This document shows, piece after piece, positions 20,795 to 25,072 of a stretch of 64,000 bases of DNA. Below the pieces are notes generated by a model. That model saw only the letters and a program-made list of their open reading frames with translations, searched no databases and was not told the DNA's origin. Position 1 is the first letter of the stretch; the number at the start of each line of letters is the position of its first letter. Origin of the DNA: Demequina aestuarii (lineage in GTDB: Bacteria > Actinomycetota > Actinomycetes > Actinomycetales > Demequinaceae); the NCBI RefSeq assembly GCF_000975095.1, contig NZ_BBRD01000001.1:2003467-2067466 (forward strand). Reading direction: 5' to 3'. The position numbers and the translations under genes were made by a program.

Positions 20795-21460
20795 ATGGAC
20801 GCGCCCGACAATCCGTGGCTCTCCCTGGATTACCTCGAGCGCAACTGGGGCGAGGTGTCGGAGCAGCTCGTCATCCACACCACGCTGACCCTTCAGGCGC
20901 TCGCCATCGCGTTCGCCATCGCGTTCCCGCTCGCGGTGATCGCCCGCCGCGCTCCACGCCTGTCCTCCCCCATCATGGGCGTGAGCGGCGTGCTCTACAC
21001 GATCCCGTCGTTCGCACTGTTCGGCCTGCTCGCGCCGTTCACCGGGATCGGCCGCACCACCGTGCTGATCGGATTGGTCGCATACGCGCTGCTGGTGCTG
21101 GTGCGCAACATCGTGGTGGGCCTGCAGGGCGTGGATCGGGACGTGACGGACGCGGCGCGCGGCATGGGCTACACGCCCATGCGTCTGCTCCTGCAGGTGG
21201 AGCTGCCCAACGCACTGCCGTCGATCATCGCGGGACTGCGCATCGCCGCCGTCAGCACGGTCGCTCTGGTGACCGTCGGCGTGGTCGTGGGCTACGGCGG
21301 CCTGGGCCAGCTCATGTTCCGCGGGCTCCAGTCCGACTACCGCGCGCAGATCATGACGGCGACGCTGCTGTGCCTCGCGCTCGCGCTGGTGCTCGACCTG
21401 CTGCTCGCTCTCGCCGGACGGCTCGCGATGCCCTGGGCACGACGGAGGACGGCCGCATGA
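20795..21460 (+). CDS. Osmoprotectant ABC permease 1 (OpuCB/OsmW type)
   Basis: 221-aa membrane protein with about six helices and the BPD_transp_1 EAA-like loop (DAARGMGYTPMRLLLQVELPNALPSI). Length is normal for OpuCB or OpuCD. The ATG overlap (ATGA) with the next permease gives tight coupling. The ATG follows TAGCGT by 7 nt and lacks an SD. Confidence 0.92.
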   Translation: MDAPDNPWLSLDYLERNWGEVSEQLVIHTTLTLQALAIAFAIAFPLAVIARRAPRLSSPIMGVSGVLYTIPSFALFGLLAPFTGIGRTTVLIGLVAYALLVLVRNIVVGLQGVDRDVTDAARGMGYTPMRLLLQVELPNALPSIIAGLRIAAVSTVALVTVGVVVGYGGLGQLMFRGLQSDYRAQIMTATLLCLALALVLDLLLALAGRLAMPWARRRTAA

Positions 21461-22188
21461 GCACCCTCAGCGAGGCCTGGACCTATCTCACCACCGCCGA
21501 GAACTGGACCGGCGCCAACGGCATCACCACTCCGACGTTCGACGGCGGCTGGAGGTTCGCGCAGGACTCGATCATCGCGCTCACCCTCGAACACCTCTGG
21601 ATGAGCTTCGCGGCCGTCGCTCTGGCCGTCGTGGTCGCTCTTCCCCTGGGCGTGTTCCTCGGTCACGTCCGCAAGGGCGGCGCCGTCACCGTCGTGACCT
21701 CCAACGTCAGCCGCGCCGTCCCCACGCTCGCGCTGCTCACGCTCTTCGCCGCATCGGCCATCGGCTTCGGCAACAACGCCGTGATCCTCGCGGCCGCGAT
21801 CTTCGCCTTCCCCCCGATCCTGTCCAACGCGTTCACCGGCATGGCAGACGTGGACCCCGACATCCGGGAGGCGGCGCTGGGCCAGGGCATGACCCGATTC
21901 CAAGTGGCGACCCGGGTCGAGCTCCCGCTCGCCGTGCCGCTGATCGCCGCCGGGCTGCGCACCGCGGCCGTGCAGACCGTCGCGACCGTCCCGCTCGCGG
22001 CCCTCGTCGCCGGCGGTGGCATGGGCGTGATCATCAACACCGGCCTCGCCACGCAGCGCTACGGACAGGTGCTCGCCGGGGCGGTGCTGGTCGCTGCGGT
22101 GGCGCTTCTGACCGATGCAGTCATGTCACGCATCCAGCACGCCGCCACCGCCACACCACTGCGCGAGGCCGCTGCGGCGAGGGCCTGA
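21457..22188 (+). CDS. Osmoprotectant ABC permease 2 (OpuCD/OsmY type)
   Basis: 243-aa permease. It has a longer N-terminal periplasmic stretch (first ~40 residues), then about six helices and the EAA loop EAALGQGMTRFQVATRVELP. It starts inside the stop codon of permease 1. The frame is open further upstream, but that part reads through the first permease gene in another frame and is not coding. Confidence 0.92.
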   Translation: MSTLSEAWTYLTTAENWTGANGITTPTFDGGWRFAQDSIIALTLEHLWMSFAAVALAVVVALPLGVFLGHVRKGGAVTVVTSNVSRAVPTLALLTLFAASAIGFGNNAVILAAAIFAFPPILSNAFTGMADVDPDIREAALGQGMTRFQVATRVELPLAVPLIAAGLRTAAVQTVATVPLAALVAGGGMGVIINTGLATQRYGQVLAGAVLVAAVALLTDAVMSRIQHAATATPLREAAAARA

Positions 22189-22320: not shown

Positions 22321-23322
22321 ATGCGCACCCGCAACGCCACCTTGGCGGCCCTGGCCGTCGCGTCCCTGACTCTCGCCGGTTGCAGTTCCGGCGGCAGTGA
22401 CGACCCCACCCCTGACGATTCCGCCGCCCCCACCACGGGCACCTCCGAACCCGCCACCGCCCAGGAGTGTCTCCCGGTCCCCGGCGAACAGCTCGTGGTG
22501 CTCGAGGACGACATGATGCTGCAGAACTCTGACAACATCATCCCCGCGCTCAACGCCGACGTCGCGACCGACGATGTGCTGGCGGCGCTGGACGCCGTGT
22601 CCGCCGCGCTCGACACCGAGGGCCTGATCGAGCTCAACAAGGCCGTCGACATCGACCGCCAGACCTCCGAAGAGGTCGCCGAGGCCTGGGTCGACGAGGC
22701 CGGCATCTCCGTCGAGGAGACCGGCGACGGCTCCAGCATCACGGTCGGCGCGGCCAACTTCACCGAGAACATCACGCTCGCCGAGATCTACGCCGAGATC
22801 CTCGACGACGCCGGCTACGAGACCGAGGTGCGCGAGATCGGCAATCGCGAGACGTACCTCCCCGCGCTCACCAGCGGCGAGATCGACATCGTCCCCGAGT
22901 ACGCCGCCACCTTTGCGGAGTTCCTCGACGGCGACATCGACAACGTGGTCGCCTCCGGGGACATCGCTGAGACGGTCGCGGCTCTCGAGCCCCTCGCGGA
23001 GGAGCAGGGCCTGGTCGTCGGCGCAGCCGCCGATGCGCAGGACCAGAACGCCTTCGCCGTGACGCAGGGATTCGTCGACGCGTACGGCGTCACCACGCTG
23101 TCCGAGCTCGCCGAGTCGTGCGGGCCGATCGTGCTGGGTGGGCCTCCCGAGTGCCCCGAGCGCCCGTTCTGCCAGCCGGGCCTCGAGAGCACGTATGGCC
23201 TTGAGGTGGCGGAGTTCCGCGCCCTCGACGCCGGCGGCCCGCTGAGCAAGACCGCGATCACCACCGGTGAGGTGGCCGTGGGACTGGTGTTCTCGTCGGA
23301 CGGCGCACTCGCGGCCAGCTGA
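22321..23322 (+). CDS. Osmoprotectant-binding lipoprotein with circularly permuted OpuAC-type fold
   Basis: 333-aa receptor. The signal ends at Cys21 (LAGC), followed by a Pro/Thr/Asp linker. Compared with ordinary OpuCC proteins the order is changed: the block that is normally C-terminal (LVVLEDD..., then LNKAVDID...SEEVAEAW) lies at about 57-125, before the normal N-terminal strand ITVGAANFTEN at 140-150. The chain ends at ...STYGLEV...VFSSDGALAAS, exactly where the usual protein would continue into LVVLEDD. Three Cys (SCG, PEC, PFC) may form a disulfide. SD AGGAG is 5 nt from the ATG. It probably binds betaine, choline or a related compound. Confidence 0.88.
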   Translation: MRTRNATLAALAVASLTLAGCSSGGSDDPTPDDSAAPTTGTSEPATAQECLPVPGEQLVVLEDDMMLQNSDNIIPALNADVATDDVLAALDAVSAALDTEGLIELNKAVDIDRQTSEEVAEAWVDEAGISVEETGDGSSITVGAANFTENITLAEIYAEILDDAGYETEVREIGNRETYLPALTSGEIDIVPEYAATFAEFLDGDIDNVVASGDIAETVAALEPLAEEQGLVVGAAADAQDQNAFAVTQGFVDAYGVTTLSELAESCGPIVLGGPPECPERPFCQPGLESTYGLEVAEFRALDAGGPLSKTAITTGEVAVGLVFSSDGALAAS

Positions 23323-23631
23323 CACATCGCTGAACGATAGAAGGCCCGGCCCCTGAGGGGACCGGGCCTTCTGTGCGTGGTGGTGTCTTCGCGGTTGGGA
23401 TCTACCTGGGCGGATACGGGGGCTCCGAGGGTTCTCTTCCATGGAACCTCGAGTTCCTCTCCATGGCCCCGGGCTGATGCCGCAGGGTCCATGCGAGCCT
23501 CCGTTCAGCAGCGCTGCCCAGCGTCGACGTTCAAGGGCGCGGAGTTGCCACCTGCTCAACGCCGTGACACGCGAAAAGCACCGTGGCAGACTCACGAATG
23601 GATCGCACGTTTGAGAGCCCTGGGGGAAAAC
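23323..23631. other. Intergenic region with terminator, left edge of accessory island
   Basis: It holds the terminator of the osmoprotectant receptor (23339-23372). Further on is GGAAC-CTCGA-GTTCC (23443-23457), flanked by two CCATGG hexamers, which could be an operator. No credible coding frame. Confidence 0.5.
23339..23372 (+). terminator. Rho-independent-type terminator of osmoprotectant operon
   Basis: AGAAGGCCCGG and CCGGGCCTTCT enclose a smaller CCC/GGG stem; 11-bp outer stem. It starts 17 nt after the receptor stop. Confidence 0.8.
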
Positions 23632-23910
23632 ATGGCCATTGAGATTACGCACGTGGGCTTCGGACAGGTCGGCCGCACTGAGAGCGCCATCATCCGCTAC
23701 CGGTGGAAGAGCCTCGAGGACAACGCCACCGGCGACAACGACAAGCCCAGCATGGTCAAGTGGGTTGACGAGCGAGGCGTGGCCTACGTGGGCTCAGGCG
23801 CGAACCGCGTCTCGGTGGGAACCGTGCATCCGAGCGGCGCGGAGGCGTACCTGCGCACGTACGCCGATGGAGCGTGGACGAATAACCTCCTGTCCCTCCC
23901 AACGTTCTGA
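23632..23910 (+). CDS. DUF3892-like small protein
   Basis: 92 aa, beginning MAIEITHVGFG, with the compact pattern IIRYRWKS...MVKWVDERGVAYVGSG that resembles DUF3892. No signal or membrane segment. It is the first gene of a region whose base composition is lower in G+C than the flanks. A GGGGGAAA tract upstream serves as SD. It does not overlap the CBASS genes (193-bp gap), and a link to them is only positional. Confidence 0.65.
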   Translation: MAIEITHVGFGQVGRTESAIIRYRWKSLEDNATGDNDKPSMVKWVDERGVAYVGSGANRVSVGTVHPSGAEAYLRTYADGAWTNNLLSLPTF

Positions 23911-24103: not shown

Positions 24104-25072
24104 ATGGTGGATGAGATCGACACGGCGAACCCACAAGCGCGGCGGGTACTTGCACTCGACGGCGGCGGGATCAAGGGCGTGTTCATCGCTGCCTTCTTGG
24201 CAGAGCTCGAGCGGTGCAGCAAGAGCCGCGTGATCGACCAGTTCGACCTCATTGCAGGCACTTCCACGGGTGGGATCGTCGCGCTCGGCATTGGCTTAGG
24301 CATGTCGCCAGCAGAGATCTTGTCAATCTATGAGCGGCACGGGCCGACGATCTTTCCTCGGCGCGGCAAGCTCCGGCAGATCACCCGCGCGAAGTATGAC
24401 CCCGCACCGCTGAAGTCGGCGCTCGAGGAGGTGTTCGGCGCACGCAAACTCGGGCACAGTCTGACCCGGATGCTGATCCCGTCAATGAGCCTCAACACCG
24501 GCGAAGTCCACATCTAAAAGACCTCTCACCTAGAGCGGCTCTTCACCGACTACAACGTAGGTGTCGTTGACGTGGCAATGGCGACGTCGGCGGCACCGAC
24601 GTTCTTCCCGACATACACGAGCCAGTCTGGGGTGCCACTCATCGACGGGGGGATGTGGGCAAGCAATCCCATGGGTCCGGCGGCGGTGGAAGCTGTCGGA
24701 GTGCTCGGCTGGTCGCCGGACACAACTCGCCTGCTGTCGATCGGATGCACTCATTCGCCTTCAACCCTCAAGGACGACACCAAGCGAGGCCACGGGTACG
24801 CGTACTGGGCTGGCCGAGTCGCGGACACGTTCATGATGGGTCAGTCCTCAGCATCGCTGGGAACGGCCCAGCATCTCCTCGATCGCCACCATGTCCAACG
24901 CGTGTCCCCGACAGTCGATGCGGGGCGCTATTCGCTCGATGATGTACGTGCGATCGACTCGCTCAAGGCGCTCGCGGTCGAACATGCCCACGCTGAGGCA
25001 CCGCTCATCATCCGCGATTTCCTCACAGGAGAACGCGAACCCTTCACGCCATACAGGGAGGTCGACCAGTGA
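24104..25072 (+). pseudogene. Patatin-like phospholipase, CBASS effector type (CapV), interrupted by an in-frame stop
   Basis: The frame is open for 322 codons except for TAA at 24515-24517 (codon 138), where homologues have Tyr in a VHIYKT motif. Before the stop: oxyanion-hole motif DGGGIKG at 19-25 and nucleophile Ser54 in GTSTGG. After it: the AAPTFFP segment and the catalytic Asp181 in DGG. The stop therefore divides the Ser-Asp dyad and should abolish activity unless suppressed. GGGAGGAG precedes the ATG. The stop overlaps the next start by 4 bp (GTGA). CapV enzymes degrade phospholipids when a cyclic nucleotide binds. 24481-24540 is only 53% G+C. Confidence 0.85.

Follow-up and report, generated by a model that had tools for sequence, protein, structure and literature searches.

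A circularly permuted solute-binding lipoprotein of Demequina and other Actinomycetes, cut at the hinge and carrying a private cysteine pair

Introduction

Can the receptor of an ABC importer be cut open at its moving hinge and still hold its two lobes together? This question is raised by the window, the whole 64,000-nucleotide stretch of Demequina aestuarii DNA analysed here, in which an open frame with an ATG start (22321-23322, + strand) encodes a solute-binding lipoprotein of an ABC transporter. A preliminary description had read the 333-residue product as a circularly permuted osmoprotectant-binding protein, formed by a cut-and-join. Here we examine the order of its segments, the position of the cut, the cysteines that flank it, its likely ligand and its relatives across Actinomycetota.

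Results

Swapped order of the binding-domain segments

The protein matches the Pfam family PF04069 in two swapped stretches, and its parts, all on the + strand, follow one another as listed here. A signal peptide (22321-22383) ends in the lipobox LAG-C21, the predicted site of lipidation at Cys21, which is also seen in relatives of the same type. The AlphaFold2 model and the relatives indicate a flexible tether at residues 22-49 (22384-22467), of low model confidence over its first two thirds and of variable length among relatives, where the lipidated cysteine and the invariant Cys50 (22468-22470) are mostly 20-35 residues apart. Segment 1 (residues 56-131; 22486-22713) corresponds, by phmmer, profile and Pfam matches, to hinge strand 2 and the C-terminal part of lobe 1 in canonical ProX/OpuC proteins. 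A linker (residues 132-138; 22714-22734), 7-12 residues long in relatives, connects the former C- and N-termini and leads into segment 2 (residues 139-262; 22735-23106), which phmmer and profile matches assign to the canonical start of lobe 1, hinge strand 1 and the first part of lobe 2. Cys267 of lobe 2 (23119-23121) precedes segment 3 (residues 269-331; 23125-23313), which contains Cys278 and Cys284 and forms the remainder of lobe 2 up to the new C-terminus SSDGALAAS. The segment order is thus 2-3-1 in canonical proteins, 1-2-3 in the window protein and 3-1-2 in Bacillus subtilis OpuAC.

Several comparisons confirm that the window protein is a circular permutant, with the segment that closes ProX/OpuC-type binding proteins placed ahead of their N-terminal two thirds. 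In a phmmer search of the PDB, residues 139-318 align to chain positions 7-184 of Archaeoglobus fulgidus ProX and residues 58-129 to positions 201-273, and the family profile recovers both swapped stretches in ProX with 76.6 and 30.8 bits. The Pfam OpuAC model (PF04069), which is independent of the alignments built in our analysis, scores 134.7 bits against a gathering cut-off of 21.2, and its positions 2-185 (E 2.7e-28) are matched downstream of 187-257 (E 5.9e-9), so that the canonical linear order is broken. For each ProX/OpuC-type structure that the family profile matches, the strongest stretch falls in the core part, and none of these structures has the segment order of the window protein. 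The expected assignment of residues 55-135 to the C-terminal lobe segment is borne out by residues 56-131, as are the direction and the cut point of the proposed cut-and-join. A partial deletion was considered and rejected.

The two ends of the chain tell the same story. The window protein ends in VFSSDGALAAS; in its closest unpermuted sisters, L211-L214, the same stretch reads VFSSDGG and continues after a few residues into VLTDDK-LQNADN, the motif that lies near the N-terminus of the window protein. The chain therefore stops at a natural junction, as had been proposed.

Predicted structures point to the same topology. The AlphaFold2 model of the window protein has a pLDDT of 90.7 and a pTM of 0.84, and that of a Geodermatophilus member of the permuted type 94.6 and 0.88 (model numbering is protein numbering minus 20). 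In structure comparison, canonical proteins match approximately residues 136-333 only (model ~116-313). Permuted OpuAC (2b4l), which is not among the matches of the phmmer or family-profile sequence searches, matches residues 47-265 (model 27-245) with chain positions 7-272 and a Z-score of 17.2, in line with the anticipated permuted fold.

The adjacent importer and the ligand

Just upstream of the lipoprotein gene lie two ABC permease genes (PF00528) on the + strand, permease 1 at 20795-21460, which scores below the cut-offs of the NCBIfam choline/betaine permease models, and permease 2 at 21457-22188, which overlaps permease 1 by 4 bases. A ProV-like ABC ATPase (PF00005; 19921-20673, - strand) is divergently transcribed and reaches 311.6 bits with TIGR01186 proV against a cut-off of 326.6. 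With its lipobox LAGC and the adjacent PF00528 and PF00005 genes, the protein has the features of an ABC importer binding lipoprotein, and it is most likely the receptor of this importer. A small solute would still be bound between its lobes, and both permeases would serve as its docking partners.

What this solute may be is addressed by the residues of the binding site. In A. fulgidus ProX, we take the betaine contacts to be Lys13, Tyr63, Thr66, Asp109, Tyr111, Arg149, Tyr190 and Tyr214, the four tyrosines making up the aromatic cage around the quaternary ammonium group. The window protein retains four contacts, with Tyr194, Thr197, Asp241 and Arg281 at the positions of Tyr63, Thr66, Asp109 and Arg149, and Tyr190 is replaced by Phe324. 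Lys13, Tyr111 and Tyr214 correspond to Ala145, Asn243 and Asp71, and essentially all members have Ala/Gly, Asn and Asp at these positions. The combination typical of OpuCC/ProX receptors, an aromatic cage (described in PMC9732360) with Lys13 and Arg149, is not found. Since the cage residues are replaced nearly invariantly, a classical betaine appears unlikely as ligand. The name osmoprotectant-binding is a carried-over annotation that is not borne out here, the aromatic cage of betaine receptors being largely replaced.

An alternative is that the protein is a true glycine-betaine or choline osmoprotectant receptor whose cage has been rebuilt from other residues. Family membership and the four retained contact residues would fit this reading, as would an ATPase nearest to ProV and a permease nearest to choline/ProW models, all below cut-off. 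However, the near-invariant replacements at the Lys13, Tyr111 and Tyr214 positions speak against it, as does the presence of another, canonical OpuAC-family protein in the same genome, and we regard it as possible but unlikely. The proteins of the operon all score below the cut-offs of named betaine/choline models, and the OsmF/YehZ model NF049931 gives 70.5 bits against an NCBIfam cut-off of 400.

Other genes lie near the locus. A gene about 9 kb ahead of the window (G000 C6:1993505-1994245) encodes a canonical unpermuted OpuAC-family protein, with 208 bits over the whole profile. Downstream of the lipoprotein gene, an open frame with a DUF3892 domain (23377-23910, +) is followed by the remnant of a CBASS anti-phage operon (24098-25450, +), in which a patatin phospholipase effector (PADLOC PDLC00757) has an in-frame stop at ~24515-24517 and the subsequent CD-NTase (SMODS, PF18144) is reduced to its first ~100 residues.

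Position of the cut and the cysteines that flank it

EgtUC provides mapped domain boundaries for locating the cut: D1 comprises residues 233-331 and 445-506, D2 residues 341-432, two strands of ~10 residues join them, and the linker after D2 extends to 445 (PMC9732360). The last residues of the window protein align to EgtUC 428 in structure comparison, and the ligand-cage tyrosine of linker 2 corresponds to Asp71 near the N-terminus (the equivalence of EgtUC and ProX is taken from PMC9732360 and our own alignment). By homology, these two observations put the cut at the boundary of D2 with linker 2, at the point where lobe 2 gives way to hinge strand 2, and it falls inside the junction VFSSDGG...VLTDDK-LQNADN of the unpermuted sisters. 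The linker of 7-12 residues connects the two original termini, which both lie in lobe 1, and new termini were opened at this boundary. Segment order and homology to the mapped boundaries indicate that hinge strand 2 stays with lobe 1, that lobe 1 is now contiguous and that a single backbone strand joins the lobes. The lipid tether accordingly enters at the hinge and no longer at the old N-terminus.

Two cysteines flank this cut. Cys50 and Cys267 are both present in all 116 permuted proteins collected and both absent from all 44 canonical ones; Cys50 lies 6-7 residues ahead of segment 1 in every member despite the variable tether, and Cys267, its presumed partner, lies in lobe 2 directly ahead of segment 3. 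Every protein scored, whatever its type, has Cys278 and Cys284 together or has neither, and two permuted proteins (L048 and L092) have lost them and kept Cys50 and Cys267. Since Cys278 and Cys284 come and go together, their conservation pattern pairs them with each other and leaves Cys50 with Cys267. The isolated strand bridges in the AlphaFold2 model include Gln48 and Cys267 (model residues 28 and 247), which suggests that Cys50 and Cys267 are close in the predicted fold. We infer that Cys50, which directly precedes the hinge strand that was severed, most likely forms a disulfide with Cys267 of lobe 2, and the simplest reading is that this bond makes up for the missing backbone connection. 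The genome that encodes L048 (G109) also encodes an unpermuted paralogue, L065.

The association of the cysteine pair with the permutation is a single event and could be coincidental, because both arose on one branch. A related alternative is that the permutation has no functional disulfide and that Cys50 and Cys267 are kept for another reason, such as metal or redox sensing or pairing with Cys278 and Cys284. The mature protein does have four cysteines besides the lipidated one. But Cys278 and Cys284 are gained and lost jointly also where Cys50 and Cys267 are missing, and the latter two persist in two proteins that have lost the former, which makes this alternative improbable.

Spread and origin of the permuted clade

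Full or fragmentary copies in the permuted order are found in 41 of the 44 genomes of the genus Demequina; of the exceptions, one (G036) has an unpermuted homologue only and two have no copy at all. The same order occurs in Cellulomonas, Actinotalea, Promicromonospora, Myceligenerans, Isoptericola, Georgenia, Geodermatophilus, Blastococcus and several further families of Actinomycetes, giving 116 distinct proteins of the window type (type A) in the survey of actinobacterial homologues. The permutation noted in the preliminary description is thus upheld, not as a single oddity but as a clade-wide form with its own cysteine pair. Apart from G036 within Demequina, unpermuted homologues are found in other families. 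No plasmid-borne copy of the permuted form was found, no plasmid record covering 80% of the query.

When 87 sequences were brought into a common order and placed on a tree, permuted proteins branched from within the canonical ones, and a single clade for type A is not rejected (p 0.376). These placements are consistent with a permutation that would have occurred once, in an ancestor of many Actinomycetes. A divergent type A member (L215) is placed beside canonical rows in the best tree with a support of 80, its position being uncertain, and for this reason a second origin of the hinge-strand cut may be conceivable. Permuted and unpermuted proteins, which share ~45-50% identity over the core, also share the neighbourhood of a divergent ATPase, two permeases and the binding protein, and the change therefore probably happened in place. 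Circular permutations usually arise through duplication, in-frame fusion and trimming, and this may have been the route here. No intermediate in the form of an open frame with whole segments duplicated was seen among the collected proteins.

These relatives also bear on the idea that a foreign domain, merely resembling the C-terminal part of OpuC, was fused at the N-terminus. The N-terminal segment alone does score modestly against distant single sequences (13.2 bits with A. fulgidus ProX). However, Pfam assigns it significantly to the C-terminal part of its model, the same segment model finds its match in unpermuted sisters at the canonical position, with 75-90 bits, and the C-terminus of the window protein keeps no canonical C-terminal segment, so that we exclude the fusion as very remote. 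A sequencing or assembly artefact or a decaying pseudogene is barely credible given the open frame, the order conserved in 116 proteins from many independent assemblies, some of them single-contig, and the residues invariant across them; with the order conserved throughout most of Demequina, neither chance nor misassembly accounts for the permutation.

Additional cut points in Actinomycetota

A phylum-wide search of Actinomycetota for further segment orders revealed two, which we call types B and C. Type B (L171-L175 and L182-L193; families f25, f66 and f49), found in other classes of the phylum, has the order 3-1-2 with a cut near PF04069 position 114. Its proteins start approximately with ASxLVLGGPPECP and end with SDLAxxx; they are cut inside lobe 2 as is B. 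subtilis OpuAC, but their sequences belong to the actinobacterial ProX-like subfamily. A single type B clade is rejected (p 0.0046), and the lobe-2 cut therefore arose at least twice. Type C (L194-L197), from the two distant subfamilies f90 and f32, is cut at PF04069 151/152, ~37 profile positions beyond the type B cut, and its two segment-3 pieces represent one split segment. Its proteins start with FxPLDxGGP or a divergent form of it and end just before it, and a single clade is not rejected (p 0.30). One further candidate (L047) was discarded: its gene is truncated by the contig end, which alone accounts for its type C score. Both hinge strands are intact in types B and C, and neither type has the Cys50/Cys267 pair, one of these proteins having an unrelated cysteine near segment 1.

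With cuts at OpuAC profile positions ~114, 151 and 186, the old termini joined in every case and at least two origins of the cut at ~114, we lean towards viewing cluster F binding proteins as a natural permutation hot spot, with three cuts in Actinomycetota and the hinge cut fixed together with a replacing disulfide. If so, a covalent connection between the lobes has been maintained though the backbone path changed, and the permutants that keep both hinge strands do without the cysteine pair.

Discussion

Taken together, we consider it likely that the receptor of a cluster F importer was permuted once by a cut at the hinge, with the lost link replaced by a disulfide, and that it remains a solute-binding protein whose ligand is probably not a classical betaine. 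Few natural permutants have close unpermuted sisters, and those that do can show how a two-lobed protein tolerates a cut in its moving hinge. Here, a direct comparison is made possible by unpermuted relatives of similar sequence that share the operon and by a defined cysteine pair, and it raises the questions of whether the hinge needs two connections and whether a disulfide is able to replace one. For the design of binding-protein biosensors, nature has moreover validated the three cut points as sites of insertion and permutation; the same scaffold family has already been used in nicotine, acetylcholine and serotonin sensors. Annotation with a single family profile conceals such forms, as it reports each permuted member as a pair of partial domains.

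A. fulgidus ProX (1sw1), OpuBC, OpuCC and EgtUC, all cluster F type II binding proteins, have their lobes and conserved blocks in common with the window protein, are ~18-27% identical to it where they align and fall into one Pfam family with it. They differ in segment order (2-3-1 versus 1-2-3), and the window protein has not kept the betaine cage and has an extra cysteine pair. Compared with ProX, B. subtilis OpuAC is a permutant as well, and its old termini meet at the same site, but it is cut inside lobe 2 and not at the hinge, and its alignment stops at model residue 245 of 313. From the OpuAC and ProX structures, CPSARST had already picked up permutation among glycine-betaine-binding proteins (PMC2395249). 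Treponema pallidum TpMglB-2 (Tp0684), of 'type Ic/cluster Bc', is a naturally permuted tethered sugar-binding lipoprotein in which the first three N-lobe strands have moved to the C-terminus and a fourth cross-over has been added (PMC4990184). It resembles the window protein as a permuted tethered binding lipoprotein but has a type I sugar-binding fold and belongs to another family, and no disulfide is mentioned for it, in contrast to the private cysteine pair of the window clade.

These two reports, the second on another fold, are all that we found on permuted OpuC/ProX proteins in a literature search that covered subscription papers thinly and so leaves absence unproven. None of the papers searched describes, for this family, a cut in a hinge strand, the fixation of such a cut throughout a clade along with a cysteine pair of its own, or three cut points within a single phylum. 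Permutation among such binding proteins was thus already known, while these three features are apparently new. The closest comparison is offered by the unpermuted sisters (L211-L214, L049 and L052-L062), which share the motifs DQN-[AG]-F and C-x-x-R-x-x-C and the transporter gene order with the window protein but retain the canonical segment order and lack both Cys50 and Cys267.
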